A stretch of DNA of 43,476 bases, taken from IMG/VR virus record IMGVR_UViG_3300017752_000033, positions 1 to 43,476 of that record, one strand, 5' to 3'. Each line of letters begins with the position of its first letter. Position 1 is the first letter of the stretch. This document shows positions 18,601 to 38,331 of the stretch, piece by piece. This DNA is from a virus. The notes under the pieces were generated by a model. That model had not been told where the DNA came from, did not search any database, and saw nothing but the letters and a program-made list of their open reading frames with translations. Position numbers and translations under genes: made by a program.

Positions 18601-21600
18601 ATCCAGGAAGTCTATAGTATCACATTCATATGGCTGCCATGGTGAATTAGCATCTCCAGTGGTCGGATCATCCCCTATAAAGGTTTGTTTTGTTAATATA
18701 TATATATTACAATTAGTATTAGAATTAGAGTCCTTGACGTAATTTGGTATAAATGGATTATAATTAAATTGAATATTAGGATTCCATTGTATTACTTGTT
18801 CACATCCCCAGCAAATATTTTCATATTTCGACTCAAAGAGCCAGCCAGCATAATCGTCATCATTATACATTCCTTGACCATTCAAACCATCTAATATCTT
18901 AAAGCTTTGACCGATGGCAAAAGTATAATTTCCAGTCCAGTCTCTCATGCTACCAGTAGGTACAACTGCACCAATCGTTCCTTCATCGAATGGTAAACCA
19001 ACCTTGTTTCCTATAACTTTATAAAAGTCCAGACCCCTTTTCACTATGTCTCCTGGGAAGTAATCAGAGTATGAACTATAGTTAGTATAATAACTTGGAT
19101 CTTTTATTGGTGAATTGTATCCAGATATACATTCAAATACCCAGGGGTAGGTTTTGAAACCAAGAGCACCATCATCCAATTCTTGCTGAAAGAATTTATA
19201 ACCAGAAGGGCTACCCTCAATTATTAATTGATCATTTGGACCCCAGAAAACCTCTTCATATATATTGTTGTCTTCAGGAAATTCGCTAGAAATTTCTAGA
19301 TTAGTTCCGAATTGTTTGAATGACCTAAGTGTAGATAAATCAAAAGTAACTATATCCCCCTCTTCGTAGGGAGCATCGAAATATTGATATTCGGGATAAT
19401 TGTCTGGGTTTATATCAGGCAATTGGTCAACCAATGGATTGTAAATAGCAGAAGCTTCAACAATTTTTGCTCCGTTACTAACAACATCTTCATCAGAATT
19501 ACCTTCACCATAATGCACGTATGATATAGGTAAAGAGTCTGGGCTTCCAGAGAAATAATTACCAAAACGACTCCACTCTTGCTTTTGCACACTGTCAGGC
19601 GCTGGATACTTTCTAACATGTCTATACTCTAAGGAGTTACCTTGATTATCTGTGCCTGCACCTATTGATTGGTAAATCCATTCTCCGTCTACTTTTTTTC
19701 TCACCTGCCAATTTGTCCAACCGTTCCATTTTTCGTCTATGTTTGCGCAGGAAATGTATTCATCTAAAGTTATATCCAAGAAAAGGGGAACTTCTTTCGT
19801 AAGATAATCGTAACCAATTGCGGTGAATTGACTGGCACCAGGCCTAGAGTTTACAGCTGGTTGGAAAAAATTGCCATCTTTTCTTGTTAGATTTGCTACA
19901 TGCAGAGAAACATTTAAATTTTGATACTTGTAAAGTTGATCAGTGACGCCTTTTTTACTGGTGTCCAGGTATATCCTGGCCATTTTATTAAACTCCAAAG
20001 GGTTACCAAATGCATCAACTTTGTTGGTTGGTCTAAACGAATCTACGAATTCAGAATTTTCAATAACAACAGGTAGATCCTCATATGTTCGGGTATCGCC
20101 ATTTTGCCTTAAATCTGAACCATAAGAATCAATAGAAGAGTCTACTTGAGATTGAGGGTTGCCAATATCAAGAATTGACGCTAAATCAGAAACGGTAGCT
20201 TTACATTGACCTATTTCATCAGTCGGCAAAATAGGTGAGGTATTAGCTGAGAAATTAACGGGTCTGGAATAAGGGTTGATTTGCAACTCCAAGATTTTAT
20301 TGTTATAACCTTCGCCGTCAAAATATTCTGATTCATCTCTATTTCTAAAGCCATCAAAAGCCCTTAGGTTCATATCTAGGGTAACGTTATCAGTTAATAG
20401 AGATAAATCAATTTTACCTACATCTCTATAGTCAGAACTAATACCTCCTTGGCTTGGATCTGTGTTTGTATTTAAAAATAACTCATATTTATGATAAGCA
20501 TCCAGAGTAAACATTCGGTTGGTTGATGTGTATTCAGGGTATACTCCGTCTACACCATCTTCTCTAGCGCGATGTAGTGGGTCGGCGTCAAAAGTACTGG
20601 AACCTAATGCTGCTCTATAAGACACAGTCGGTTGGTCGACGATTATAGATAATCCATGGTCATTAATTTCTTCTGAGTTAGCTTGAATATTAAAAATTCC
20701 ATTTAATAAAACATTATTTAGGTCCCTGTATTTTTGGCCTGGACTAATAATAGTGAGCTCTCCATTTTCTTGAGGATCGGTTTTGTCGTTTAAGGTATAC
20801 TTTCGGCCATCAAGGTAATCATAATAAGATAACGGACCCAGTGCAGCCTTAAAGCCTTGCAACAAGCTACTCGTAGCTCGTTCAGGAAAAGTAACTTGAC
20901 CATTATCCTTAGAATCTTCTCCTATGGGTAACGCAAGTCCAGCAATAGGACCTTCTGATAAAATTTCTAAGCTTTTATATAAACCAATAGATTCTAATTT
21001 TTGATAATTGCCTCTATTACCGACTTTTAAAGGCGAGCTACCTTTAAAAGCTATAGGTTCTCCGTTCAAGGTAACACAGTTAACCCTGCTAGAGTTGGGA
21101 CGCATCGAGCCATCCATTCCTCCTCGAGGAAAAACAAAGGGCCTAACTGTATTGCTTTCTGGCACTGTGGATCCACTATTGTGTCTACGTAAGGCTTTTT
21201 TAGCAGAAGGTCCATAAACTTTACGTCCTCCAGACCAGTAACCTTGATTTTCGTAACCCTCGCTATAAGACTCGTTATTTATGTCTGGGTTAAAGCTTTT
21301 TGATCCGTTTTCCCCGCCAAAGCTCAGTATACGTTTATCAGTTAAATTGTACGAATTAACTTGATCTTCTACACTAAAATTTCTTAAATCATCATTAGAT
21401 GGTGTGCTGTTAATAACTAGGTCGGCACTAACAATGTTATCAGAATTGTATATAACCATGTTTTTGTAATCAAAATCATAATTTTCAACACTAGAATGAA
21501 TCACTTTAGTTCCTACTCTAAGCTGTCCATATACTATTGGGACTGGCGTACCTTGCTCTGCTCGATTTTCGTTATCTGTATACAAGAATGAATTTGTTTG

Positions 21601-21990
21601 TATGATTTCATACTCTGGTACATTTTCTTCTTCTGTGAAATTTAATTTATCAGCTAATTTTTGCAAACCATACGACATGCCAAAATTCATAGCAAAATTT
21701 CCCAAAAATCCCGCCGCTCCAGCCGCTCCAGCTTTTCCTTGGGGTGAGGGTATGATGTGGTATTCTTTTTCTTTTAATAAAATGTTTCCGCAAAAGCGCT
21801 CGTAAGTTTTATCTTTTGAATCAACGAATTGAAAATCTACACCAATTTCAGATTTTTGAATAAAATATTGTTTAAACTTAGGGAAGTTTACACACAACCC
21901 CATAATTGCATCATTGGGAGTTAACGCATCTAAATAAATGTTTTCGGCAAATAAATCACTTAACTCACCATGCAATATAAATTTCTTCAT
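6661..21990 (-). CDS. Giant gpI-gpJ fusion: central tail tip / host-specificity protein
   Basis: 5109 residues; lambda gpI is ~220 and gpJ ~1130. Residues ~1-175 resemble gpI: LFAENIYLDALTPNDAIMGL, a Gly/Ala segment (GKAGAAGAAGFLG), then QGTPVPIVYGQLRVGTKVI. The gpJ core begins at LSEGPIAGL (~345) but resumes with IYLDDIPIRD only at ~2500. It continues with TNVSISIKINKL, a hydrophobic stretch (~2610-2708), IRIYRSTREID, YPTTALVGTRL, IPSNYD, NPAWVIYDLLTNEKYGMG (~2870) and FSTGLKGSFLSIGDIIEVVD. Beyond ~3290 come Thr-Pro linkers (~3287-3523, 3660-3740, 4527-4565), Calx-beta-like domains and carbohydrate-binding-like folds. The protein should close the tail tube, meet the host receptor and open for DNA release. 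ATGA overlap with the gpK-like gene and AAGGA upstream fix the start. The gpJ assignment is firm; the insert's function is unknown. Confidence 0.9.
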   Translation of the reverse strand: MKKFILHGELSDLFAENIYLDALTPNDAIMGLCVNFPKFKQYFIQKSEIGVDFQFVDSKDKTYERFCGNILLKEKEYHIIPSPQGKAGAAGAAGFLGNFAMNFGMSYGLQKLADKLNFTEEENVPEYEIIQTNSFLYTDNENRAEQGTPVPIVYGQLRVGTKVIHSSVENYDFDYKNMVIYNSDNIVSADLVINSTPSNDDLRNFSVEDQVNSYNLTDKRILSFGGENGSKSFNPDINNESYSEGYENQGYWSGGRKVYGPSAKKALRRHNSGSTVPESNTVRPFVFPRGGMDGSMRPNSSRVNCVTLNGEPIAFKGSSPLKVGNRGNYQKLESIGLYKSLEILSEGPIAGLALPIGEDSKDNGQVTFPERATSSLLQGFKAALGPLSYYDYLDGRKYTLNDKTDPQENGELTIISPGQKYRDLNNVLLNGIFNIQANSEEINDHGLSIIVDQPTVSYRAALGSSTFDADPLHRAREDGVDGVYPEYTSTNRMFTLDAYHKYELFLNTNTDPSQGGISSDYRDVGKIDLSLLTDNVTLDMNLRAFDGFRNRDESEYFDGEGYNNKILELQINPYSRPVNFSANTSPILPTDEIGQCKATVSDLASILDIGNPQSQVDSSIDSYGSDLRQNGDTRTYEDLPVVIENSEFVDSFRPTNKVDAFGNPLEFNKMARIYLDTSKKGVTDQLYKYQNLNVSLHVANLTRKDGNFFQPAVNSRPGASQFTAIGYDYLTKEVPLFLDITLDEYISCANIDEKWNGWTNWQVRKKVDGEWIYQSIGAGTDNQGNSLEYRHVRKYPAPDSVQKQEWSRFGNYFSGSPDSLPISYVHYGEGNSDEDVVSNGAKIVEASAIYNPLVDQLPDINPDNYPEYQYFDAPYEEGDIVTFDLSTLRSFKQFGTNLEISSEFPEDNNIYEEVFWGPNDQLIIEGSPSGYKFFQQELDDGALGFKTYPWVFECISGYNSPIKDPSYYTNYSSYSDYFPGDIVKRGLDFYKVIGNKVGLPFDEGTIGAVVPTGSMRDWTGNYTFAIGQSFKILDGLNGQGMYNDDDYAGWLFESKYENICWGCEQVIQWNPNIQFNYNPFIPNYVKDSNSNTNCNIYILTKQTFIGDDPTTGDANSPWQPYECDTIDFLDTNKFDFYPSEYRQVNGRGEWIVPDEFEPYLIEAVEVTNTGVWKILPMKNVAPPQQYSEWSKTESYQKREYVLYGGKFYRAKNDVKNPWQKPEYATSLPHILPDHLMHKALGYSSDYLNKQNEPTQQEIADLLGSDFNIEEAESLPHWFSPFDRSDPSDISNDQFYKYFSQGHAKLAMLDTFTFKAAESYPEWRDNIAYQGFYYFQDFFTYHETKTTAIVASSAIQFEDHWLFDVVYEEDGEDVYGLHRRTKQNSDYFQYQRDTTPEEKDDVNLEISTYFTQTYSDDWGQPAWDGMEDYYYTDKNLIDYQRGKFDDAPRLANLRWIAESINLNYFNQFNSTTWKGQYLNDGLVVVKREHSQWDFAHQQRVASKNAWQRQGSNRPYCRNYTNVQINKSHVVVRYNGRLFKLKDGESVDPEENNFLYDLDTDQPTEYRKTFYKDNGYNGNQEVTLFSGDKTIKGIRLKCPTACNDAFYNGGETFEFQKIGTKPTRIANGDEVANITLSPGLSAVARSLLDDVTFETEGGGQVTQTSNISDNELITSLSKTTTFSTDISVTRRTFDPPIDSNGSLNSKWIEIPLSLTPDRDPDNWESNISWKQAEIEEEEDSFKPGDYNIDFDFQGFAVDTNVTALMPDPPPGGENPGFVGRLFGGGKKVNDIYQSPKHFVKYTEPEWTRLANGVSKNVSISKLIREVYLSRAVVYEQSVTYYKSFGRKKPGYEYQTFNSIPCYASTGEKFNEYILNQFKKAIEANGDTFIIDKAMASKEARVANSRITSHTVSSSSQVAALQSRGYQTLRTRFLLFNIGVGGRNMPFDPSNPEQEFVQDYLYGSEKSGFPSYMLQSHEFDGSRNGYFGRSLKTFKNIQFLNLGYAPGDFSDDRTGFYESTFSPRATIYVLRKREDNTVSILPTSIEAFAQTDNSHGIIQDIFLLKTPTRCVYDPFAFGWTYISPTSKDSLKPSVVMGGDLYQDIGFFVSIDSTIGNYPIKCEVSDGEVTSIVVNGFYNAPESGDTGLKYGWESHVENDSPDFRTPLGLYNDGSILSLTVLNSSRNGKVKAVGEVLDSNNITFIDKGRYLASNKNSRMIHTGRVKEFDIIDSGSGYNSVFVNGYVLPLVNVLKSLQTDSLERGYKPGLLALAYGLPASKFENVNLTPQQLVSYVKVKIQFQVASTGKIENDRSNFNSALPNGYAILNPGIGFSVPDRIIFLNADYHYPINDDMSDDEKEFNTTMRLRMAHLRSLLSSQKPKIFASDQSISLNPDHDLQKQPLILNAIPENGSIRFIEQKQSGKGFLPFDRIPDPFENLSEFLPAFNLTFNNGSLVSAFLDFDNNLTSFSPEDTEVSITISNPKLLVEDMSSNNPGSDPYAKFRSIYLDDIPIRDHTHRFNFSKFHFDLRVGNFKNYDTEYNIPRILDDDVRSSLISDEFKIPAYTKFLNSPLYGPRNEGDKDYFITHTIKNPQVTNVSISIKINKLHYIYEGDESVVYLNLIPILGMVFGWMIGKYLAEQLKEFIPDLAKTFGIGASIGFTFPKLLSAPIKMAANAIAEAFVMTGGILGALAGIDIAKKYFGCDKLPWLCFKVGELIKNSGEIWPAKINLIVEYGLEGKNLTKQLLTFSGCATSPYVKDVYLDALPLPNREDEYINRNRTIRIYRSTREIDPMVGGLAEARFKIDAEVASITEYVGGYFSYPTTALVGTRLNSKDFPSLPKREFLIKGKLIKIPSNYDAINGLYIGSWNGYFRDEFLWTSNPAWVIYDLLTNEKYGMGKYGVTAEDIDKWSFYRFAQRCDDRVDTIVDGQETNERRHMCNLYIDSEKEAFEYIKGLMQIYNASLNFTHGKITIVQDAPSEVGPVMLFNNSNISEGGFAYSSTPATSQITAVTVDYLDERDNYTPKSEYVENSRGIRIHGYSHIRIPGNGITRTGEAFRLAWQKMLSREVEREVISFSTGLKGSFLSIGDIIEVVDNNKISHHSGGRVTKIVDNNTIELDVPIEAIGDTDFLYVEINDHNYENWEAEKEYTFPTVVEHKNLFYALIGQNGLNSPNVDPTNWRPLIDFKGKKFSKYTIISKSNFSVTFAENLFKNIKTGYTWTVYHNTDNKIKSKEYRVQQIKQKSTLEYEILASEYYIDKYIQIDKLSSSSDSVGGIDFNPTEYYGHEIKLSPPATRTPTPTITPSNSVTPSYTPTSSITPTYTPTNTITPTYTATQTITPTNTTTVTPTVTPSLTATPTVTPSLTATPTLTPTLTATPTLTPTHTPTQTITPTNTTTVTPTVTPSLTATPTITPTITPTTTTTPSNTITATITHTPVPTFSITPSFGSSMTPTLTPTITPTVTLSNTLTPTVTPSNTLTPTVTPSNTLTPTYTPTITPTLTVTPTNTNTPTPTLTQTITPTETVTPTQVAHPLFLHYGANVTVLQTAEGQSVESTIYRKMDDRCWKGRATVKYWLSSVDSNTVNKDLVAKKDEDFLEKQGEITFEDGEDSTTVEISALLDDVDDYPEFFQIMIDSHVDIVDTVFHQTHTVFENFDNPKLILINLPSTTPTPTYSVTPSITPTNTVTPTHTPTHTPTLTVSTTPPPTDTPIPSISPTQTPTQTPFPTDTPTSTPDPTATPPRTPLPYHDGGIQVYLDPDVAVLNEGSTAHLTVRRTLGPGFYAGPVSGVVDVSLSEEFTPPLEFTSFLNNEFTDGLNNWSINDSVDVDLEVVNNTNQNNKLIKLSSETLSSTRPSIVDGIRDPGHVSDPSISKSWSGFYITGDGFHNRLLYDDPNKNTHILALSGIVDESDSFYDPTENLVIFDERLSFPFPYSLIFENRNEFPSNVPKELTADRPFIVGAYKSFDGLTPGAIYNTSYEGEVIDDDSGPVLNAILFEPLIYSKEYPVDWEETQDSWPDLTLGSFTLNGNNLSGDSSVNNFDPAIITFPTIPGRGYSIEVSVEHSETSFDITNPPTVFELFLNDQPIKEITSSDIDLSNNGRHIISHIFQAQSDTVSNISFLNGDFSDGASTSLNDWEVTDQNNSTIDDSTVIDTSEDGVLLETSSIDSTNLSDTAKVSQTLGTSIGQEYSILLDFKKITPASTIALVMLVNDVVVFNSHERLNPAAGTVNFITPVTFKANSDSTKISFTTDNVHGAILLRSAEISIKSSLLNNNNLKISMPTIGNNETNSLVISDIKIKEGFYYSKLNRLRFNVLDDTDGEYLNAAKSITLMAFQQDPGKSVIHSLNISAPKSLPKIHQTISFNDDIVNKPTEIINIRAFITNANGGSTDMFIDGKKIASTEQQGDFIFSANHEIRVGALMGNVYDSFSLGFSSEGVGSRQIDSVYVQSSGSLGFAGPDDIHVGEIDFSFESNETKTLTDQAIVTIKDDQWYPEELNEVFSISLPYDKLSSHPGDAVYINKDKTVTGFGLILEPTPTPTITPTLTSTVTPTSTLTPTLTVTPTLTPTVTPSLAYQYFYDKFVSLDLTTSTFGKEKVGSDIYFYNTEDLIGKDWSHHLAHSWYDKGNNYNDSDYPEVAFIVAGGQQKQTFDFSFNDLGASLARELIVYRPKINDRLYDGAISGTINFEMTFDNIDIDIGSPYTYTKDGELIDYFEQPLELDKYNNSKDALPLNPIKQGWRSPTSKQYRLRSQRDSADDFSPPGQNSYSFITHQDQNPQRDPSSNNASFDFYLAKGQIATNVVGVSGVRKNFPMRDSEIYIYDPITDTETGEYTILAPDCDDDDSSPSEHILPLPKGETVTVKLKYENIVLCDEHDNNNTSNENIENQPSFSDLAPSIYLNPFKEKQIKLFFYQSDSYDGTNPDAINLDDPSQVQCNLIDPPLFKLNNRYSSTMDFQENVRDNTPYIFPDQVFRIDSHNIDVHSDPYTGFALLSKNDDSFIVKYYDLVSRTVKTTFVVKCKNIDLPSSNMSKFDIEDLPIDATSAKVARDIGKSVDAIQFNITLGDGEKIEFIIGDTGETVGPYNPNANNPPAGYDTVYQKFEIRGIDARTAFTGG
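8293..8411 (-). repeat. Thr-Pro repeat linker 3 of the giant tip protein
   Basis: About 40 residues of (T/S)-x-T-P-type repeats between the second Calx-beta-like half and the last, unrecognised domain. An extended, stiff, mucin-like spacer is the likely structure. The many Thr and Ser residues could accept O-linked sugars. Confidence 0.8.
10769..11010 (-). repeat. Thr-Pro repeat linker 2 of the giant tip protein
   Basis: About 80 residues of TPT/TPS/PTxT repeats joining two Calx-beta-like domains. Composition is Thr, Pro and Ser with few charged or bulky residues, as in extended linkers of surface and fibre proteins. Confidence 0.85.
11770..11846. repeat. 77-bp perfect direct repeat, copy A
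   Basis: Identical to the copy beginning 156 bases further right, and lying inside Thr-Pro linker 1. The offset is a multiple of three, so gain or loss of one period keeps the frame. Confidence 0.9.
11926..12002. repeat. 77-bp perfect direct repeat, copy B
   Basis: Second copy of the 77-bp repeat, offset 156 bases (52 codons) from copy A. The DNA between them is built of related shorter GTT/GGTGTT units. Confidence 0.9.
13866..14160 (-). other. Hydrophobic, possibly membrane-inserting segment within the tip protein
   Basis: Codes for residues ~2610-2708 of the giant tip protein. It holds at least two strongly hydrophobic helices with small-residue spacing (LIPILGMVFGWMIG; then AFVMTGGILGALAGIDIA), separated by an amphipathic stretch (FGIGASIGFTFPKLLSAPIK). 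The flanks are recognisable gpJ core sequence, so the block reads as an insertion. Membrane insertion is an inference from hydrophobicity. Confidence 0.6.
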
Positions 21991-22736
21991 AAATCCTTAT
22001 ACCTATATACTTTATACACTTTATTCAAGTGTTCAGGTAGAAATAATTCTTTCTTAGGGTAGCCGTAAATAGGGTGGTGGTACATAGTATTATCGCCCAG
22101 GTATATCCCCAAATGAAATACTCTATCTAAAGTAGGCTTAAACACAATGATATCATAATCTTTTATGCATGAAAAATCAATATTTATAAAGTTATTTTCT
22201 ATGTTTTTTATTAAAAATTTATTAGAGTCTTTTCCTTGTCTCGCCCAATTTTTAATTGAGTTAGTAAATTTAATATTAAGTTCTAGTTGAAAAAAATCTT
22301 TCACGAATGTAATACAATCTTGAAAGTAAGGTATGAAAATTCTTTTTTGTAGAGGTTTGGGTTTGTATGAGTTGGGGTAGTATAAGTACTGACTCTTATC
22401 TTGTATCGAAAAAATAAATGAAGGTAAAGATAAAGATTCTGAAACATTTAAATCTAGTGAACTTGGATTGGAGTTGTACTCTATATGGCTATGATACAGA
22501 GATAAAATGTTTTTTTGTAAATAATATTTATAAAATCGTTTATCGTGAGAGATAAAATGGTTCACATCATAACTATCCTCATTCACAAAAGGTAGAAATT
22601 TAATAGTGCATCCATCTGACTCTAGAATAAAAACTCCACAAGTCTCCCTATTTTTGTGCTTTAGGGAATACTGTAAAGCCTCATGTACTACATTAGTATT
22701 TCCAAGATCCAGGGAAGCCTCCAAACGGTAATCCAT
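21987..22736 (-). CDS. gpK-like tail tip protein: JAB/MPN metalloprotease plus NlpC/P60
   Basis: 249 residues with the lambda gpK layout. The N-terminal JAB/MPN domain has E31 in ETCG, the zinc motif HSH at 82-84, and Ser92/93 with Asp95 completing H-x-H...S-x-x-D. The C-terminal NlpC/P60 domain has Cys141 (QDCITFVKDFF) as the presumed nucleophile and His208 (FHLGIYLG) as its partner. Known relatives are tail-tip proteins with peptidoglycan peptidase and metalloprotease domains, used in tail assembly or cell-wall penetration. The ATG lies inside the end of the gpL-like gene (44-base overlap) with no clear ribosome site, so coupling is likely. The stop overlaps the tip gene start by ATGA. All key residues I looked for are present. 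Confidence 0.88.
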   Translation of the reverse strand: MDYRLEASLDLGNTNVVHEALQYSLKHKNRETCGVFILESDGCTIKFLPFVNEDSYDVNHFISHDKRFYKYYLQKNILSLYHSHIEYNSNPSSLDLNVSESLSLPSFIFSIQDKSQYLYYPNSYKPKPLQKRIFIPYFQDCITFVKDFFQLELNIKFTNSIKNWARQGKDSNKFLIKNIENNFINIDFSCIKDYDIIVFKPTLDRVFHLGIYLGDNTMYHHPIYGYPKKELFLPEHLNKVYKVYRYKDL

Positions 22737-23595
22737 TATCTAATTCACTATCTCCAAACCGAGCACGACAACCTTTTAAGTTTTTACTACATGCATCCTC
22801 AACCCAGTTACTCTTATTGGTCTCGGGGTCAATACCAACTGTTCCGTCTTTTAGGCAGACGTAAAGTTTGGGAGCTAGGTTGGGTTGAGTTTCATCTAAA
22901 ATTAAAACATATTCGCCTTTTTTATATGTTGCTTCTGGATCAAAAATAAAAGGGTCGCCCCTTACGATAGGTGTACTATCTGAAAAATGGATAGGGTTGC
23001 CCTTGCTGTCTGTTTTGGGCGGACCATCGTAACCGCAACCGATATGATGCCGGTAACGCCATTGACATGTATTGTAAACAATTTTACGATTAGGTAAAAA
23101 AGAATTTTCTTTTTCAAGGGGTGAGGATAATTCGAATGCTATGGAGCTTGCATTTTCATGAGTTTTTTTATTAATAATATACTTTTCAACGGGAAAAGAG
23201 TCTTCATTACCTGTACCAAATGGATTAAGATTATTGGGGAAATTATTATTGCTTAAAAATTTTACAAAAGTACGAATGCGAAAAATTTCATAACCCATAA
23301 AATCATCAAAAAACCTTGTTTTTAAACCGAAAAATCCATCACTATTATCAAACACTAATGTTGGACGAGGAAATTCATTGTCAGCATAATCAAACCCATT
23401 GACAGAAAAGGGTATATAAAAATATTCATTCCTGCCTCCCCCTTCGCCATAAAAAATACTTTGCTTGTATCCGTTTTCGCCGTTATGAAAGTAATAGTTA
23501 TTACCTCGAACTTTTTTAGTCAAAGACAATCGAAACAAAGTAATTAAAGTGGAAGGTTCAAAATCTAAAATTTCATCAATAATGGACTGCTTCAT
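22693..23595 (-). CDS. gpL-like tail tip protein with four-cysteine iron-sulfur-type motif
   Basis: 300 residues. The C-terminal part holds the gpL signature: NTCQWRYRHHIGCGYDGPP with Cys177 and Cys187, then CSKNLKGCRARFG with Cys269 and Cys276, ending in LPFGGFPG. In lambda gpL the equivalent four cysteines bind an iron-sulfur cluster; the same is expected here. Between Cys187 and Cys269 lies an ~80-residue insert with a chitin-binding-like pattern (ATYKKGEYVLI ... LYVCLKDG ... SNW) and an extra Cys247. The N-terminal 160 residues are the usual beta domain that docks on the gpM ring. It starts 19 bases after the gpM-like gene and overlaps the gpK-like gene, as expected for a tip cassette. 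Confidence 0.88.
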   Translation of the reverse strand: MKQSIIDEILDFEPSTLITLFRLSLTKKVRGNNYYFHNGENGYKQSIFYGEGGGRNEYFYIPFSVNGFDYADNEFPRPTLVFDNSDGFFGLKTRFFDDFMGYEIFRIRTFVKFLSNNNFPNNLNPFGTGNEDSFPVEKYIINKKTHENASSIAFELSSPLEKENSFLPNRKIVYNTCQWRYRHHIGCGYDGPPKTDSKGNPIHFSDSTPIVRGDPFIFDPEATYKKGEYVLILDETQPNLAPKLYVCLKDGTVGIDPETNKSNWVEDACSKNLKGCRARFGDSELDNGLPFGGFPGSWKY

Positions 23596-23614: not shown

Positions 23615-24775
23615 TTACCTCGGACTTTCAATAAAAGTAGCAGTAATAGTATGATTGTTAAAGTAAATAAAATTATGTGTCCATTCGGGGCAGTAAAAAT
23701 AACTCATATTACGTCGGTGTGGGGTAGTATTATTGTCGTTTGAAATTTCAACACCATAATCTTTTTGAATATGGAAGCCAAACCTTTTATAACCTAAGTG
23801 GCTCTCTAGAAACAATAATATTCTTTTTGCCTCGAGGTTGCTTCTAGCAGAAAATGTAACATTTAAATTAGTTAAGTTTGGATTAAATCCATACTTATTG
23901 TATTTAGAGTAAGCTTCCGATAGATTTGATTTTTTATATTTAGGAGCATGATCAATACTAATAATGTCATCCGCCCTAAAGTCAAACATGCGTACATCAA
24001 GATAGCCCGCATTAGTTAAGGGAGGGTAGGGGTAATAGGAACACTCGTGAGGTTTATTTATGAAAATAGAATTCCTATATAGGGTATTCGAATTGCGACC
24101 ATTATCGTAAGGCTCAAACACATTAAGGGGATCAAGTAAGGATATAAAATTTGTTGAATTATTACTGAATTCTAAAATACTTGAGTTAACAGGAAAACTT
24201 TTATAACTATCGGGTTTATAGAGAACATTTTTATCGCTAAGGTTTACATCTTTGTTTGAATTGTTAGCGAATTGAGCAGAGAAGTTTCCAGCATATCCCA
24301 CTTCAGATAAAGCATATTTTGTTTCAATGTTGTCGTTAAAATGAACATTAGGTTCAACACTTTTCAGTATAGATGCAGCTGTAGAAGTTAAGGTTGCCTT
24401 AATTGAATTAACATCATAATAAGATTTTTCATGAGTATAATTTAAACAATTAAAAGCATTAACTTTGTAAGGGTAAAAAGGTTGGTAATCAAAAGCTGGT
24501 ATTCTCTTGTTATCAAAATGACCTTCTATATTGTATTGTTGAGGCTCGTAATAAAACTGTTTTTGAAAAAAAGAAATTAAGTCATGTGACTGTGTGTCTA
24601 TTAATTCTTCAAAATTTAAATTTAATGTCATTGTTAGAGAATTAATACCTTGAGGTAAAACTTGAGAATAATTATCTCCATAACGAACGGAATGATTTAA
24701 AGAAGTGAAAGATGCAGACGAGCCAAAAGCTGGCTGCATATCTAAATTGTTATACTCTGTATTCTTGAGGTCCAT
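23615..24775 (-). CDS. gpM-like minor tail protein (distal tail ring)
   Basis: 386 residues. The N-terminal part has the Phage_min_tail signature: HSVRYGDNYSQVLPQGIN at ~29-46, followed by LNLNFEELIDTQSHDLISFF. The end repeats the fold pattern with LTNLNVTFSARSNLEAKRIL and a closing CPEWTHNFIYFNNHTITATF. Lambda gpM is about 109 residues, so this protein is more than three times longer and looks like two related halves: the first ~110 residues and the last ~110. It should form the ring joining the tube to the tip. The start overlaps the preceding stop (TAATG). Confidence 0.8.
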   Translation of the reverse strand: MDLKNTEYNNLDMQPAFGSSASFTSLNHSVRYGDNYSQVLPQGINSLTMTLNLNFEELIDTQSHDLISFFQKQFYYEPQQYNIEGHFDNKRIPAFDYQPFYPYKVNAFNCLNYTHEKSYYDVNSIKATLTSTAASILKSVEPNVHFNDNIETKYALSEVGYAGNFSAQFANNSNKDVNLSDKNVLYKPDSYKSFPVNSSILEFSNNSTNFISLLDPLNVFEPYDNGRNSNTLYRNSIFINKPHECSYYPYPPLTNAGYLDVRMFDFRADDIISIDHAPKYKKSNLSEAYSKYNKYGFNPNLTNLNVTFSARSNLEAKRILLFLESHLGYKRFGFHIQKDYGVEISNDNNTTPHRRNMSYFYCPEWTHNFIYFNNHTITATFIESPR

Positions 24776-32700: not shown

Positions 32701-35700
32701 TTTTTGATTAGAGTCGGCAAGATCTTTAGATGTCGCATTAATTCTCTTCAAATATCCCTCATCAATTGCACCACGTCCAGCCTCCGTTGTGAAATTAGGA
32801 ATCAACCCATTACTAGCACCATGAGTTTTAGGATCTATGCCCATTTCCCTAGCTCTCTGGATGCCTTGCTTTACTCCAGCAGGCTCATCACGAGTATTGG
32901 TAACAGCCAATCCCATAGGGTTTAACCGAGACTTTAAACTATCGTCTTGATCGACACGAATCATTGATTCAGATATACCAGCAGATTTTTCACGAGCAAT
33001 CGATTCAGCTAAAGGATTAGCGAAATTAGGAATTAACCCTCTATTCAAAAACATTAAGTCGGACCTAACTTCGGGGCTATTTTTCCATTCATTTATCAGA
33101 GCCTCCATTTTATCTTTTTTGATAAAAAGTTTTGTGTTGGGGTCTGTAATGTTTAAGTTCATTTTCTGTTCACCAGGTAAAGATCTGCCGCTGGTGGCTT
33201 TAGTACCATAAAAACCTCTACGAGACGATGATGAACTGTTGCCTGATTTTACTGATTTGTATTGATCTCGATAACTTTTTTCGTAAGAATCTTTATCTTT
33301 AGTAAATTGACCCTTAAGTTTTTGCATCTGTTGTGGTGGCAGTTTTTTATTGGTCTCTAACCACTTTACAAATTGATTCATATGTTTACCAGTGCCTCCA
33401 AGGCTGGTATACCAGTCTTTTCCTCCATCGCGTCGATAAGCGAAACTTCTTTTAGCGAAAACGTTTGGGGCAAAGTTAGGAATTAATCCCCTGTTAAAAA
33501 TTTGCATAACCTCCGCTTCGCGAGGACTAATTTGATTTGTTCCATTAGGATTACGTCCAATATCTGATTGAGGCACCATTGAGTTCATTGATTTATCATA
33601 GAAATCATATTCTTTTCTACCATATTCTGTTTTATAATGTTTTAATAATGAAGGGTCATTTCTTCTGCCAGCAACATTAAGGTAGACACCGCCATTTTTT
33701 TTGGCCCACTCTTGTATGGCTCCGCTAGCCATAGCTTTTTTAAATTCTTCTACTTTAGGATAGTATCCTTTTTTAGGGTCAGCTCCCTTACTTAGTATTC
33801 TCAATAACTTCTTTTTATTGAATACATTTTTTTCTGGAACAGTTTTAGACAGCACCTGGCCATCAGTCACTGGTTGTCCAGGAGTAATACTACCAGCAAA
33901 ATCTTTAGCTACTGTTTTCGAAGTGCTAAAAGATGTAGCCCCAGAAGGCATTACATTGTCAGATTCACCTATATCCCTATAACCAGACATAGGCCCACTC
34001 ACATGAGACTTAGTAAAATTTTGTATAATTTTAACAACATCTTCAGGAGTCTTAACTCCAGAAAAAGATGGCATATTTTTGCCAATCGTAGGCTTATCAA
34101 TTGTTGACCTTGATTTGCTTTGGCCTCTATATAAATTTAAGTTCGCAAAGTTAGGAATTAATCCTCCAGAAGCATTTAATTCTTTAAGTTTTTCTTTAAT
34201 ATTTGTCTCAGCTCCTCCATCTTTAATTTGATCAAGAATCGAAGCAGCTTGGTCACCCACATTAACATAATCTCTAGCGTAGGTGAAAGCAATTTTAGAA
34301 CCGTCGGGAATTTGCTCCCCAAGTGCGGACTTAATTTTAGCTGAGGAGCCTTCTCGACTATCTGAGGTGAGCTTATTTTTGTTTTCCGTAACAACATGAC
34401 TTTTAATCGATTTACCCTTTCTTTGGTCTGGCATCCCTATCATATCGGCTACCTTGGCCCCAAAATTAAACCGGTAAGTCTTAACTGAATTAGATGCGGA
34501 TTTACCTTTCATTGCAACTGGACGTGCCTTGCTCTTGGGCTGTTTGAATCTAGAAAAGTTAAATAAACCTTGATTCATTATTTTCTTTAGTATTTTGGCG
34601 GGCCCATGACCATAATCATTTTGAGACCATATAGTATCTCCGTATGTATATGGACCCTGTATGTCAAACAATTTGCGAAGTTTTGGGTCAGAAGATTGAC
34701 TAGATATACCCTCTAAATCAAAAGGCTTGCTATCTTTACTGTATGATTTATTAAAAGCTTCCTCAACAATATACTTTTCAAAAGCATTTCCCTTGATAAA
34801 TTGTTTACCTTGACCTGAACCTAGATTATTAAGTTCATTAATTTTCTTTTGGAAATTTTTTATTTCTTTTTCGTTTAAATGATACGTTAGACCTGGATGA
34901 AGAGGTGCATTTTTATTAAATAATTTAGTTTCATTTAAATAATTCTTTGGAATATTTACATCCTTGGCATATTCATCAATAGACTTGTATTGTTTAGATT
35001 GAAGTTTTGAGTATGCATTTTTATAATTGTAACTAGTAGTAAGTGGTTTATATTTTTGCTTTAATTTTTCATGCTCAGACTTACCTGCATCAAGAGCTAT
35101 TTTATCTAAGTCTTTCCTGAAGGGGGTAATTAATTGTTTTTCTTTTGGGTTTGTTTTTTGCTTTTGAATTTGATTAAAAAATTTAGTAGCACTACTTAAG
35201 GATGGATCGATTGTATATTTACCTGATTCCTTCATGGAATCAAATGCTAAATTTCGAATAAATGAATTTGACTCTTTAGAGCCTGATAAAAATATATGAG
35301 AAGCTTGCGCCTTAGTTAGCCCACTACCCTTGAGAAAATCATCAATAGTACTCGCCTTATTTAATGAAGATTTAATTTTTCGATAATCTTTAACAAAGTT
35401 AGGAATCAAGCCTGAAGATAAATTATATTGTTTTATTAGTTTAGCTTGCTCTTTTAAAGATAAAGATTCTGTATCGATACCAGATTGAGATAAAACATTT
35501 AAGGAGTCAGAAAAGTTTTCCTGTTGAAAAGATTGACCTTCTTTGGTTAAACCTCTTCTACGTAGAAAATCAGAAATGCTTTTATCGCTATATAACCTAA
35601 TACTCTTTGCGATTAAATTAGCTTGTTCAATTTTATTGTATTTAGATTCAATTGGAGTTAAACCTTTGCCTATTTGATCAACCTTAGCTTGATCGTGGGT

Positions 35701-38331
35701 CATTTTGTAACCCAGGGCTCCTGTGTATTTTTTATTAATTGCTTTGTCGTACTTATCACCCACAGCTTTAGTGCTAGGAGCTCGCCTACCTTTTTTTCCT
35801 TTAGAGAAATTTTCAGTTTCTCCAATTGCACTAACCTTCCTATCTTTTCTGTTTTGTGGATTATCATAGCTAGAGAAAAATACATCTCTAGATAAAACAT
35901 TGACTCCTGATTGCTGTAATGCAAGAAGCTCTTTTTGTTGGGACTTGATATGACCAGCTACAGTACTAACTGGAGCTTCTAATTTATGCAAGCCAGTTTT
36001 CTTGTTGCCTCTATAATCAGCGACACTAGTTTCTACTTGCATTTTAGCTTTTGGCAATTGAAGAATGTTGGTGCCAGGTATAATAGTAGCTTCATTGGCA
36101 AAGTTGGGAATGTAACCGCCATAATATACTGGAGTTCCATTTAGAGAAACAGAATGGCCTGATTGATACTTTGATCTTAAGGTTCTTAATTTGTCTAGCT
36201 GATCTTGACTGTAACCGTTTACCTTGCTAAGTCGATCTAAATATAAACTTCCACTACCTAGCTTTTGTTTTAAAAATGTTTCAACAAACCTTCTTTCGTT
36301 AGAATTATTAAGTTGAAAGTTTATGTTTTGTCCTGATTTTTTGTTTTTAAATTTAATACCTTTATTGGCTGGATCGTTTAATGTGTCATTAATTTTTTGA
36401 GATCGAGTCCTGGGATCAATAAAATTCGGAATTAAGCCATCGAATTTATATGGGTCGAAGCCATGTTTATCTTGAAAAGTTGATTGGTATTGCTTGCCAG
36501 CTTGACTTTTTTGTGGAGGCAAAATAGCTTCTTGAGAAAACCCATCGAATTTTTTAACTGTTTCTGCATCGTTATACACGACATCGCCAACTCCTTTTAT
36601 TTTAGTTTTCTTAATCTTACCAGGTTTATAACCTGCCTGTTTGGCTCCACCGGACTCAACTACAGCTTCCATATTAGAGACTGAGGAATCTTTAGGGATA
36701 AGTCCAGAAGATGCAGTTTTAGGTTTACCTTGAGTTAGGCCAGGTGTAACTCCAGACCTTAATAATCCAGGAGCTAATGAAGCAGCTAATTGAGATTGCC
36801 TTTCTAGGAATTTAGTTTGATCTGCAATTACTCCAAGCATAATTTGCTCTTGTTTAAGTTTGTCACCAGCATACTTATTTAATTCTAGAGCTAATTGTTT
36901 ATTGTTACCTAAAGCCATAACAATAGATTCTTGAATTTTCCGTTCTTTGTCTTTAGCTGAAACTATTCCAAGAATATCTTTAAGAGAACTTTTAGCGAAT
37001 TTTAAGGCATTAAAAAACAACTTACCAAATATACCGAATGCAACAACTAAACCTGGACCAGTTAAAACACTTCCTATTCCTCGAACCAAACCTTTAGCGA
37101 AATCCGAGCCCAAGGATTCTGAATCTGAGCCAAATAAATCATTTAAAGCTCCACCAGCCGAATTAATAGCATCCAATATATTTGAAATGCCTGGAGCTAA
37201 AGCTAACTCTCCTATGTTGGCAGATAATTCTTGAATGGTGAGTGAGGTTTGTTTCGCTAAAGAGGATATTGTTTGCTGGAGCTGAGCGTTTTTTTGCTGT
37301 GCTTGGTCGGTAGCACTAGCTGATATATCAGTCGCTTGCGCATACAGAGAATTCTCTCTGTTTAAATCTTTCAAAGCAGCCTTTAAGACATTAATTTGAA
37401 AAACACCACCGACTTGCTCTGCAACTGCAGCTTTCGTTGAAGATCCTAAAGTATCATAAGTTTTAGATAAACTAGTCAAGACTGTTAAGGCTGGTAGAGT
37501 GTTGCCTCTAATATCTCGAACGGCCACCCCGAGTTCTTCTAATCTATCCAAAGTACTACTTCGTTGTATACGAGTAAATATTGTTTTAAAACTATTACCA
37601 ATAACAGCACCACCACGAGCTGTAATTTGTTGCGCAGAAGTTACTGCTCCTACCAACTGATCAAAGCTTACCCCGGCATCTTGAGCTACAGCTCCAGATC
37701 GAGCTAGAGCATTAATTAAATCGTCCGCACTAACAGCAAACTTAACGTCTACTGCAGCCAATTTATTAATTATAGAGGTAGTAGTTAGGCCAGCATCAGC
37801 AAAACCATTGACGGCAGCAGTCAAACCAGAAACTGCAGCCGCTGCATCGATTCCAGTTAGTCGAGTTAATATCAATGCATCATTGGTTCGACGTAATGTT
37901 TCCTCCATGGATAGACCTTGACGAGAGAATTCTAAAGCTGCTTCCGCAGCTATTTCTAAGCCTTGAGATGTGTTGCGAGCTACATCAAATAAGTCTCGAC
38001 CAAATTTTTCTAAATTAGGCAAACTCGTACCTAATACAACATTAATGTCTGTTAAAAGTTTTTCAACTTTAACCGCTTGTATTACGACTTGAGAGAATGC
38101 TGTTGCTACACTACCTATAATGGCCGCTGATGCTCCAAATGCAATCACACGAGCGTTAGATGCTTCTAAAGATTTAGAGAACTCATCAGCTTTTTGAGTT
38201 ATTCTACCCAAAGGTTGTGTGTAATCTGATGCACGAATTTTAACGCTTAATCCTCTGCGGTTCACTCGATTGACGATATCTTGAATAGATTCATCTAATC
38301 CTACTACTCTTCCTTTAATGTTTAATGCCAT
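26749..38331 (-). CDS. Giant tape measure protein with embedded cargo-like modules
   Basis: 3860 residues; lambda gpH is 853. Residues ~50-400 are the conserved tape-measure domain (PhageMin_Tail type): ALEFSRQGLSMEETLRRTND, LARSGAVAQDAGVSFDQLVG, GNSFKTIFTRIQ, EQVGGVFQINVLKAAL. A hydrophobic stretch follows near 415-445. From 543 to 1842 eight copies of GLIPNF-type motif (543 GLIPKD, 632, 739 GYIPNF, 974, 1390, 1615, 1765, 1842) separate unrelated segments, including an ADP-ribosyltransferase-like one and a GNAFE nuclease-like one. Residues ~2000-3100 are Lys/Glu/Gln-rich coiled coil. Two copies of a GG.V..P.KV..ML..GEYV(I/V) motif lie near 3160 and 3735. It sets tail length and occupies the tube lumen. 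GAGAGG 11 bases before the ATG supports the start. Confidence 0.92.
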   Translation of the reverse strand: MALNIKGRVVGLDESIQDIVNRVNRRGLSVKIRASDYTQPLGRITQKADEFSKSLEASNARVIAFGASAAIIGSVATAFSQVVIQAVKVEKLLTDINVVLGTSLPNLEKFGRDLFDVARNTSQGLEIAAEAALEFSRQGLSMEETLRRTNDALILTRLTGIDAAAAVSGLTAAVNGFADAGLTTTSIINKLAAVDVKFAVSADDLINALARSGAVAQDAGVSFDQLVGAVTSAQQITARGGAVIGNSFKTIFTRIQRSSTLDRLEELGVAVRDIRGNTLPALTVLTSLSKTYDTLGSSTKAAVAEQVGGVFQINVLKAALKDLNRENSLYAQATDISASATDQAQQKNAQLQQTISSLAKQTSLTIQELSANIGELALAPGISNILDAINSAGGALNDLFGSDSESLGSDFAKGLVRGIGSVLTGPGLVVAFGIFGKLFFNALKFAKSSLKDILGIVSAKDKERKIQESIVMALGNNKQLALELNKYAGDKLKQEQIMLGVIADQTKFLERQSQLAASLAPGLLRSGVTPGLTQGKPKTASSGLIPKDSSVSNMEAVVESGGAKQAGYKPGKIKKTKIKGVGDVVYNDAETVKKFDGFSQEAILPPQKSQAGKQYQSTFQDKHGFDPYKFDGLIPNFIDPRTRSQKINDTLNDPANKGIKFKNKKSGQNINFQLNNSNERRFVETFLKQKLGSGSLYLDRLSKVNGYSQDQLDKLRTLRSKYQSGHSVSLNGTPVYYGGYIPNFANEATIIPGTNILQLPKAKMQVETSVADYRGNKKTGLHKLEAPVSTVAGHIKSQQKELLALQQSGVNVLSRDVFFSSYDNPQNRKDRKVSAIGETENFSKGKKGRRAPSTKAVGDKYDKAINKKYTGALGYKMTHDQAKVDQIGKGLTPIESKYNKIEQANLIAKSIRLYSDKSISDFLRRRGLTKEGQSFQQENFSDSLNVLSQSGIDTESLSLKEQAKLIKQYNLSSGLIPNFVKDYRKIKSSLNKASTIDDFLKGSGLTKAQASHIFLSGSKESNSFIRNLAFDSMKESGKYTIDPSLSSATKFFNQIQKQKTNPKEKQLITPFRKDLDKIALDAGKSEHEKLKQKYKPLTTSYNYKNAYSKLQSKQYKSIDEYAKDVNIPKNYLNETKLFNKNAPLHPGLTYHLNEKEIKNFQKKINELNNLGSGQGKQFIKGNAFEKYIVEEAFNKSYSKDSKPFDLEGISSQSSDPKLRKLFDIQGPYTYGDTIWSQNDYGHGPAKILKKIMNQGLFNFSRFKQPKSKARPVAMKGKSASNSVKTYRFNFGAKVADMIGMPDQRKGKSIKSHVVTENKNKLTSDSREGSSAKIKSALGEQIPDGSKIAFTYARDYVNVGDQAASILDQIKDGGAETNIKEKLKELNASGGLIPNFANLNLYRGQSKSRSTIDKPTIGKNMPSFSGVKTPEDVVKIIQNFTKSHVSGPMSGYRDIGESDNVMPSGATSFSTSKTVAKDFAGSITPGQPVTDGQVLSKTVPEKNVFNKKKLLRILSKGADPKKGYYPKVEEFKKAMASGAIQEWAKKNGGVYLNVAGRRNDPSLLKHYKTEYGRKEYDFYDKSMNSMVPQSDIGRNPNGTNQISPREAEVMQIFNRGLIPNFAPNVFAKRSFAYRRDGGKDWYTSLGGTGKHMNQFVKWLETNKKLPPQQMQKLKGQFTKDKDSYEKSYRDQYKSVKSGNSSSSSRRGFYGTKATSGRSLPGEQKMNLNITDPNTKLFIKKDKMEALINEWKNSPEVRSDLMFLNRGLIPNFANPLAESIAREKSAGISESMIRVDQDDSLKSRLNPMGLAVTNTRDEPAGVKQGIQRAREMGIDPKTHGASNGLIPNFTTEAGRGAIDEGYLKRINATSKDLADSNQKASDATTDLTGRLFGLTTVTYMLEGAFSEVEGTTGQVLKTFTGVAQGASQAALTFEALSPMASGLSDKLTKWGSSLQGTSGFLGKSKGVMGTFVKSLGGAAKSLPLIGSVVAGVIPIFSALKENTGLFDSGLDTLNKSAKKTAKSIEAVGSAMEATTSVQETQKQITDLTNSGQANTYQGQMKLMSLNSTLIKNQNALQQSALSLAKELNLSGDELQAMTSGTAQGMSKLQEAMTKLTIRQSVTSSAQNMGYEGALGQDIDFKHVLMKSQTSSGQVAPAYRNQNLSQRIFGDDREKRLTFESGALNLSNTMNIAGVEKQDALGQMSKFQRMNNGDNGKDLDLMESYAKEIADINQPLSEFVLQLMASGKSAEHIRTTLSLINPIYQKIANEGEKISKENEIQASISKEVNAQKRKLLNAISLQATMANNNLKLLKDEQNYATQRMNHQAKLTESLGFLSEETENNEKIAIEQKKIDNEYLNKKQKANDDAIAAQNKLAADLFAGSKDKTGMNFSILKGDYEKKVLKPSGPGSLSQSNPSTATETIKASENPEEAFQGNLKKLQKQLTDAGMSELSAKLKGVRSAEEANARSLDYLKNLNDSAEKSKQLSKLQEMNVVSSEGLNSKLESINQSKDEQLRVANEEKSMAENNLGQLRKEFQLNKNGVGAARQRVDRYNELKKFLAIQGGMQQEVNKAMLEEVDAVIINGQISKEVNGFKRSYLQNSDYISKLTESLAVTLDEEYTNELEALAKQRARIAAEEKNTKLQELAAQTIQERIRNERSGFGKKMRDSNTETNAKLEVDPDTGKTFFEGKADLNLTEVTNAGKELAAQFAADKTAGVHLQETLNTMAEEGRSWVKSVNDFQQRLNDNDFATKAKQSTITEYGNVVGKSQAREGMLNKITRKDFSGTSSPDIQNELVGLTGFQAKSKTATKDLITETNNLTDQHKANIEFKRYEAEASRKMTEESISFSSSLIEARSRLDSNDFGKKALEQSQTNALSARGEAQSVSGKRNKVTDPTSDFFGKTGNEIDVDTSTTKLTTETNRLTDVFNQRVKSGYFSIEAEESLKQAKIKAKEAEEQFTAQLKAGQFTFDAHEEMNQAQRDFTKELIKLKEKIANGEGFRDGAREVELDEKRSQYKVQKAEGTRDAYSEKGATVRAAESDLAVAQARKEMNLELGKEALFRDTITERIAQNNVALERFGETLANTSFDAVENGLNDLVTNMGDSTKSMSDSLKSFAGGIAQSISDAFKQRATKQLTSGIFELFGMGDTGIEAKNRGGLIQGFASGGSVGSPDKVPAMLTSGEYVVRKKIVDKLGSKSLESINESGSLDDLYNKNNEDLFDISTEGAAPLPSVVQSADRSMMEKNLLNQRPMISEEKPSVGSLSDEDSEMIRMNALSDALNKFHGGIVGLFQGGLANLSKTLLPVQKLNRGGMSDHSDWSSFGFNPSAQTGVAMSQKNLKGELTARSSSKPASVESPEPNLFNRSLHEKAANIKSAALNMESVNSRAPIEKFRVGDENAKYSHVPANESTAASKFYDQTMSIGSDSPSNIQQSLMNTSSIPATRKSLEKQLESANFEVPGFDEGGDPGDKKNWLESTWDKGKKALTSNADDSAMSKIAKGSGTLVGNVVASREKESGQNEDTSPKPPSKPQRLNSSSALDIDSTSPMMSARYKANDSYRKDYAQYLLDKYEYEVQKQNEHVMNNANQLQAIAGNITGAIAAHGLNNEFKNIKNARADKKDAKNLKSLEEKVEADSSGFKKVEMKPKSESGRIDLGLQKANESNTNMSPGSSIAQGSPSSNHTNSYSKSATRLSQPGKNTTINNKYLYTGTSSNNTETPNEIFSRTRDEKPLQMSAGGRVHGPGGIDKVGPIMLDKGEYVIKASSVKNVEKKYPGFFNRLNSMKMNQGGPVTNTPNMSSNVSNATNTSSQSNNISVNVTVPPNNSSGDTSGSVNQEVLAGKIKEAVTHVISQEQRVGGSLRGK
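26768..26773 (-). promoter_or_regulatory. Strong ribosome binding site (AGGAGG) deciding a GTG start
   Basis: AGGAGG on the minus strand, eight bases before GTG of tail-tube-like protein A and inside the last codons of the tape-measure gene. It supports GTG over later starts. Confidence 0.85.
32791..36705 (-). repeat. Eight dispersed GLIPNF-type motifs in the tape measure gene
   Basis: Six-codon motifs at 36688-36705 (GLIPKD), 36421-36438, 36100-36117 (GYIPNF), 35395-35412, 34147-34164, 33472-33489, 33022-33039 and 32791-32808. Most are preceded by Ser/Asn-Gly, Ser-Ser or Asn-Arg and several are followed by Ala-Asn. Spacing is irregular (77 to 416 residues) and the intervening sequences are not alike, so these are conserved joints between modules and not a tandem repeat. 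Confidence 0.9.
33560..34146 (-). other. ADP-ribosyltransferase-like segment within the tape measure
   Basis: Residues ~1396-1590, between two GLIPNF motifs. Visible are LYRGQ with Arg1402, SFSTSKTVAKDFAG (Ser-Thr-Ser motif near 1469) and GRKEYDFY with Glu1574. The order and spacing fit the R-S-E class of ADP-ribosyltransferases (R...STS...E). The usual second acidic residue of an ExE pair is not obvious, so activity is uncertain. Confidence 0.5.

Follow-up and report, generated by a model that had tools for sequence, protein, structure and literature searches.

A putative ADP-ribosyltransferase module in the tape measure protein of an uncultivated phage

Introduction

Among described phage systems, the ADP-ribosyltransferases (ARTs) of bacteriophage T4 come closest to the element considered here, a predicted ART module in the middle of the tape measure protein (TMP) encoded by the IMG/VR virus record IMGVR_UViG_3300017752_000033 (positions 1 to 43,476; this whole stretch of 43,476 nucleotides is referred to below as the window). 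T4 Alt, of the Alt/VIP2 family, is annotated as particle-borne and is described as being injected with the DNA, and ModA and ModB are described as free, non-injected proteins (PMC5512222). The module has features of both. With Alt it shares the R motif, LYR[GS]Q, and with ModA/ModB the register of the S motif (S-[FA]-[ST], eight residues and F in the T4 proteins; S-F-S, eight residues and F-A in the module) as well as, at its proposed third motif, ExEVM (EQEVM, EQEVMIPA in ModA; EAEVM in the module), although the stretch from S to ExE is longer in the module than in ModA/ModB. The setting differs: the head holds Alt as a protein of its own and ModA/ModB are free, whereas here the ART would lie within a virion structural protein, as part of the tail TMP.

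Phage polypeptides that each combine many unrelated enzyme domains, known as polyvalent proteins, are thought to be injected, and ARTs are prominent among their domains (PMC5512222); the main text of that report never uses the term tape measure. The same holds for the main text of a survey that covered 21,191 viral proteomes. It reports phage ARTs that are fused to or located beside head and portal proteins, about 44% of the phage ARTs found occurring in contexts suggesting head packing (e.g. head or portal fusions), and NAD+/ADP-ribose systems in 60% of myoviruses versus 16% of siphoviruses (PMC9503650). Sle1-type contractile injection effectors are TMP-related, have exchangeable domains and reside inside a tail-like particle, but they belong to a bacterial injection system, and the abstract describing them names neither ART nor IPNF punctuation (PMC13277306). 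In the titles and abstracts of the open-licence papers listed by our searches there was no TMP-ART fusion, which may be published elsewhere, and the motif GLIPNF had no match in that literature. Peptidoglycan hydrolases carried by TMPs act on the cell wall and not on cytoplasmic targets. As enzyme domains embedded in a TMP (SLT and others) they nevertheless resemble the arrangement described here (PMC10194240).

Homology of the module to T4-type ARTs

The 3860-aa open reading frame (ORF) that carries the module is a TMP, as shown by its matches to PF10145 and, in its N-terminal part, to PHROG tape measure families (best 2.3e-40), by its large size and by the adjoining minor tail genes. The module itself (Table 1) is very probably a homologue of the ARTs of the R-S-E class, of the Alt/Mod kind. 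Ordinary searches were uninformative, and we therefore built reference families of ModA/ModB (10 sequences) and Alt (9 sequences) from bacteriophage records and compared them with the family of the module (11 sequences) using hhalign, with and without the separators, that is, the G-[LFY]-[IV]-P-N-[FY] motifs bounding the modules of this TMP. With separators removed, the module family scored 34.4 against the Mod family, while 104 decoy families from the same phage contigs, including repeats since the loci overlap, scored 14.6 on average against the module family (standard deviation 3.0, maximum 23.5). With separators retained the score was 34.5, and none of 150 column-shuffled Mod families reached it (maximum 23.7). 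Against the Alt family the module scored 32.6, compared with a maximum of 21.2 in 200 shuffles, and this alignment begins at LYRGQ versus LYR[GS]Q. For comparison, the score between the known homologues ModA/ModB and Alt is 35.0 (shuffle maximum 26.8). We also ran 272 modules of at least 80 aa from related TMPs, a set from which those of contigs L014 and L019 were left out, one at a time against the Mod profile. The top 11 (25.7-32.0) were the ten ART-module entries and a divergent module of contig L066, with the next best at 20.3; the ten entries represent nine homologous TMPs, contig L079 repeating contig L002, and are not independent.

Several observations weigh against this assignment. All three motifs were never matched in one profile alignment: against Mod the S motif was matched, but the R motif of Mod fell on GYRDIG and its EQEVM on IQEWA, and against Alt the R motif alone was matched. 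The background of the Mod family is also wider, reaching 24.5 with decoys and 26.8 with shuffled Alt. Single T4 proteins ranked like decoys against the module profile (ModA 378, ModB 158 and Alt 113 of 903) in a run that was disturbed by the separator motif as well; once this result was known, the comparison was redone with the separators removed and the decoy families added. The homology to Mod and Alt is significant at the level of families; no single T4 sequence is conspicuous. Furthermore, the module had no ART match in Pfam or among PDB sequences, AlphaFold models remained at a mean pLDDT of 46.8 (9-sequence alignment) and 48.4 (14-sequence alignment), and Foldseek and VIA-align searches with both low-confidence models returned no significant structural match.

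The silence of Pfam says little, because T4 ModA and ModB, run as positive controls, had no ART match in Pfam either (Alt matched PF03496, 5.8e-36). Searches for PF18760 in the window had no match, and their controls were silent too. The module matched nothing in PHROGs (best 0.12), tblastn against GenBank phages detected no relative of it or of 1103 aa of modules, and scanning prokaryote genome contigs by pattern gave 111 matches, none of them a relative. In the model search one chain came up, the Rhs toxin TreTu, which we take to be an ART; at Z 2.1 it counts for nothing and was given no weight. The second model (pLDDT 48, likewise given no weight) has strands at LYRG and VLSKTVP and a helix after the S motif, which is what an ART should show.

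Another fold, with motifs that resemble those of ARTs by chance or convergence, would fit the unmatched database searches, the models without confidence and the lack of one alignment covering all three motifs. It would have to account, however, for scores with both the Mod and the Alt family far above shuffles and decoys, for three motifs found in the right order and for the L066 module scoring above the Mod-family shuffles, and we consider it improbable.

Table 1. Positions of the features discussed; coordinates are those of the window unless a contig is named.
Feature	Residues (aa)	Position	Strand	Basis
ADP-ribosyltransferase (ART) module	1396-1614	33490..34146	(-)	profiles, motif scan, conservation
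R motif LNLYRGQ	1398-1404	34120..34140	(-)	best R site in entire TMP
S motif ATSFSTSKTVAKDFA	1465-1479	33895..33939	(-)	best S site in entire TMP
Proposed ExE motif REAEVMQIF	1604-1612	33496..33522	(-)	best ExE site in TMP, narrowly
Codon of Glu1574	1574	33610..33612	(-)	rejected as catalytic residue
GLIPNF separator	632-637	36421..36438	(-)	sequence
GGYIPNF separator	738-744	36100..36120	(-)	sequence
GLIPNF separator	974-979	35395..35412	(-)	sequence
GGLIPNF separator preceding ART module	1389-1395	34147..34167	(-)	sequence
GLIPNF separator 3' of ART module	1615-1620	33472..33489	(-)	sequence
GLIPNF separator	1765-1770	33022..33039	(-)	sequence
NGLIPNF separator	1841-1847	32791..32811	(-)	sequence
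L066 module, between two GFIPNF motifs of another TMP		L066:1325-1936	-	sequence
Tape measure protein (TMP) ORF, 3860 aa		26749..38331	(-)	PF10145, PHROG, N-terminal 560 aa common to relatives
PhageMin_Tail domain	125-309	37405..37959	(-)	PF10145, E 2.1e-20 (Pfam)
Lambda gpM-type minor tail protein (context)		23615..24775	(-)	PF05939 1e-15
Lambda gpL-type minor tail protein (context)		22693..23595	(-)	PF05100 2.9e-34
Lambda gpK-type tail protein (context), possible peptidase		21987..22736	(-)	NlpC/P60 PF00877 1.3e-5

Candidate catalytic residues

Motif profiles were derived from T4-type Alt/Mod ARTs only, those for R and ExE from both families and that for S from Mod. Scanned over the entire TMP, the R profile scored highest at LNLYRGQ (15.7 bits; runner-up 9.3) and the S profile at ATSFSTSKTVAKDFA (22.4 bits; runner-up 9.3), so that, together with the top ExE site, the three best motif sites of the whole protein fall in the ART module, in R-S-ExE order. 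The ordered triple scored 45.5, compared with 19.3 for the best of 1000 shuffled modules, and among 467 ORFs (337,587 residues) triple scores above 20.2 were limited to those with an ART or L066 module. Conservation points to the same residues. Arg1402 (codon 34126-34128), Ser1467 and Ser1469 are invariant in all 14 rows of an alignment of 11 ART modules and three L066-type sequences; Glu1605 and Glu1607 are invariant in the 11 modules, which preserve these glutamates together with the R and S motifs at identities down to 51%. The likely third catalytic motif is E1605-x-E1607 (REAEVM).

This third motif is where the case is most exposed. The ExE site is weak alone, because it scores 7.4 and the runner-up 7.2, and its two glutamates have no counterpart at the aligned columns of the three L066-type rows. 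When the motif scan was first run, its S profile came from 7 Alt sequences only, and the highest-scoring triple of the TMP lay elsewhere than in the module; the scan was redone with the Mod-family S profile after that result was known.

An ART in this TMP had been proposed from the DNA sequence alone, and the original prediction correctly located the two flanking GLIPNF motifs, Arg1402 in LYRG, SFSTSKTVAKDF at aa 1467-1478 and Glu1574 in GRKEYDF. Its idea of an ART within the TMP is well supported by profile scores, decoys, motif scans, conservation and dN/dS, and the R and S motifs of its R-S-E order exceed chance; the third residue is where we depart from it. In the window, Glu1574 does follow the S motif, but it is E in 8 of the 11 modules, R in L005 and L019 and D in L009, and scores -8.4 or -6.9 with the ExE profile when taken as the first or second glutamate. 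An ART with Glu1574 as its catalytic glutamate is accordingly very improbable, and the interval then given, 33560-34146, ends short of the likely catalytic codons (33511-33519). Two further candidates were set aside: Glu1500 (VPEKN), invariant in the 11 modules but N in the L066 rows and unlike an ART motif, and the glutamate of IQEWA, where hhalign places ModA EQEVM, which is not conserved among the 11 sequences.

The module is probably catalytically active. In R-S-E ARTs the ExE motif goes with an arginine target, and arginine-directed modification is therefore our first guess. The module might instead be a relic whose ART-like fold only fills space or sets distance within the ruler structure; the third catalytic motif being the least certain of the three, and module number and length varying so widely among related TMPs that some modules may be fillers, this would have some basis. 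A filler would hardly keep R, S and both ExE glutamates unchanged throughout 11 sequences whose identity falls to 51%, however, and dN/dS is low (see below), which makes an inactive relic improbable.

The divergent module of L066 carries the motifs LFRG, VSASTDEDIAKYFA and KEISFLSNG. It scored 33.2 against the ART module family and 22.0 against the Mod family (shuffles reach 19.3), and relatives at 90-91% are present in L091 and L092. Less favourably for an ART assignment, its score with Alt (16.4) is not above shuffles, there is no ExE at the aligned place, and the ExE site of the motif scan falls past the module's own separator. A search for the ART module in the records of 46 of the 55 IMG/VR stretches selected by their IPNF motif (see below) gave two matches, one of them the record of L066; the other, L094, belongs to a different kind of ORF, 352 aa long, and was judged to be due to chance. 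By eye, the L066 ORF (L066:2-5512:-) also contains, in aa 637-1193 and 1540-1755, two PD-(D/E)XK-like motifs and a P-loop, APAGAGKTT; these had no Pfam support above cut-offs.

Exchange and selection of the module

The ART module (226 aa as scanned) was found in 11 further IMG/VR contigs (L002, L003-L009, L014, L019 and L020). That of L002 is 97% identical to the module of the window, the two TMPs being nearly the same, and those of L019 and L020 are identical to each other. The N-terminal 560 aa of the window TMP are matched (42-99%) in nine of the ten other ART-bearing ORFs compared; the tenth, in L009, is cut off at the 5' end before the N-terminus. An IPN[FY]-like motif stands directly before the module in 11 of 11 cases (IPSF in L005, LPNF in L009), and the motif after it is degenerate in L004 and L005. 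Beyond these borders the 11 TMPs differ: upstream flanks of the ART modules form five groups without mutual similarity, and the 109 inter-motif modules of nine TMPs, compared by blast, are shared in different combinations. The downstream flanks weaken this picture somewhat, as those of the window and L002 are weakly similar (23-27%) to those of L005 and L019, which leaves only four downstream groups. These comparisons show that the ART module moves as a unit between TMPs. It is also, as shown by dN/dS values of 0.06-0.29 in 16 of 17 module pairs (one pair is saturated, and the ratios are rough because dS exceeds 1 in many pairs), under purifying selection. Taken together, we find it fairly likely that an ART with R1402, S1467-F-S1469 and E1605-x-E1607 occupies the middle of the TMP as one of several exchangeable modules bounded by G-[LFY]-[IV]-P-N-[FY].

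The separators themselves are far from random. The window TMP contains seven [IV]PN[FY] motifs, compared with a mean of 0.05 in 2000 shuffles, and seven G-x-[IV]-P-N-[FY] motifs, for which 2000 shuffled copies averaged 0.005. Motifs of the GLIPNFAN type mark a class of long ORFs in IMG/VR phages: the corresponding DNA pattern matched 55 stretches (L033-L087), 37 of which have ORFs with at least two IPNF motifs, up to a maximum of 12 in one ORF, and 17 of 25 scanned ORFs with at least two motifs matched PhageMin_Tail. The separator motif is conserved at the protein level. Since 105 motifs are encoded by 91 distinct 18-mers, a DNA recombination site is not favoured; module lengths from about 77 to more than 500 aa likewise lack the regular spacing that ring-by-ring contacts with the tail tube would have. 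They might act as hinges, be sites of cleavage or bind a chaperone.

Other modules between the separators

The ART is the sole enzyme identified in the window TMP. In L006 and L008, an ART and a CCA-adding enzyme share one ORF. The CCA module of L006 (L006:5825-7351, aa 1560-2068 of the TMP ORF from L006:1148; Pfam 7.5e-20) sits between two VPNF motifs, is 94% identical in L008 (blastp) and has no match in 5104 aa of the close relative L007. NF008137 was matched at 2.5e-52 by one of 49 modules scanned with NCBIfam, which is taken to be this one, and its sequence displays GG-x-x-RD, D-x-D, RRD and HD-type motifs. The module is an apparently intact CCA-adding enzyme (tRNA nucleotidyltransferase). 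At an E-value of 0.01, the Pfam scan of the same 49 modules returned 11 families, every one with a single member; three relate to the CCA enzyme, and the others are weak. CCA-like matches occur in 412 records of GenBank phages, and the three examined belong to ORFs of 450-1237 aa that contain no IPNF motif.

Among the 25 scanned IPNF-punctuated ORFs, one has an SLT domain, and a GNAT acetyltransferase match (4.2e-4) was seen in one. A 77-aa module of the window TMP (32791-33021, aa 1771-1847) with GLAVTN..DEP.G recurs in eight of nine TMPs compared, twice in L004 and L009.

Possible delivery through the tail

TMPs leave the tail at genome entry, and the lumen of the tail tube is about 4 nm wide. 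A folded domain of 25 kDa would hardly fit such a lumen, and the modules are therefore probably extended in the tail. We envisage that the TMP occupies the tail tube with its modules extended or unfolded and exits ahead of the DNA, and that the modules would fold after exit, exposed or released in the infected cell. The ART could then use host NAD+ to modify host proteins or components of defence by ADP-ribosylation as soon as infection begins, before phage gene expression, as head-borne Alt does. The lambda TMP was found with inner-membrane proteins at genome injection and is reported to aid DNA crossing (PMC13190303). Delivery through the tail, suggested by the TMP identity and by such published TMP behaviour, is plausible, if unproven, and the mechanism of an injected enzyme as a whole seems to us reasonably probable. 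In this scheme we infer the ART fold, the catalytic glutamate, the cytoplasmic delivery, the activity, the target and the role of the separators.

The same separators might mark a polyprotein, the TMP being cut at or near them late in infection, with the ART acting in the producing cell or travelling as loose virion cargo. Their position at module borders, kept at the protein level, would suit this, as would the neighbouring gpK-like protein with its NlpC/P60 domain and weak JAB match (PF14464 1.5e-4, under that family's cut-off); lambda gpH, moreover, is processed near its C-terminus. However, scans of neighbouring ORFs revealed no further protease, and cutting before assembly would take about 1200 aa off the ruler. 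We regard this arrangement as unlikely.

The kinship of the module with the T4 enzymes, which chemically tag host proteins, hints that the tail ruler of some phages may itself bring take-over enzymes into the cell. An ART built into the ruler would constitute a second delivery route, open to siphophages. It makes testable whether TMPs generally carry cytoplasmic enzymes into the host, and what role the GLIPNF separators have. The related TMPs would then be modular payload arrays delivered via the tail. A broader and more tentative view, which could well turn out wrong, is that TMPs punctuated by G-[LFY]-[IV]-P-N-[FY] are widespread tail-borne carriers of swappable takeover or counter-defence enzymes in uncultivated phages, threaded out ahead of or with the DNA, with the separators marking holding, release or swap points. 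The payload might then comprise ARTs, the tRNA-repair CCA-adding enzyme and perhaps acetyltransferase and nuclease modules.

Tail gene neighbourhood

The genes 3' of the TMP are of the lambda M, L and K types, followed by a 5109-aa ORF, and the tail module is therefore siphophage-like. This ORF (6661-21990, minus strand), which comes after the gpK-like gene, is positioned like lambda gpJ, and phrog_15511, of unknown function, is matched by a short stretch of it (1899 aa scanned). Further along in the window, the first 177 aa of a 988-aa ORF (265-3231, minus strand) match the phage glucosyltransferase family phrog_2835 (8.6e-15).

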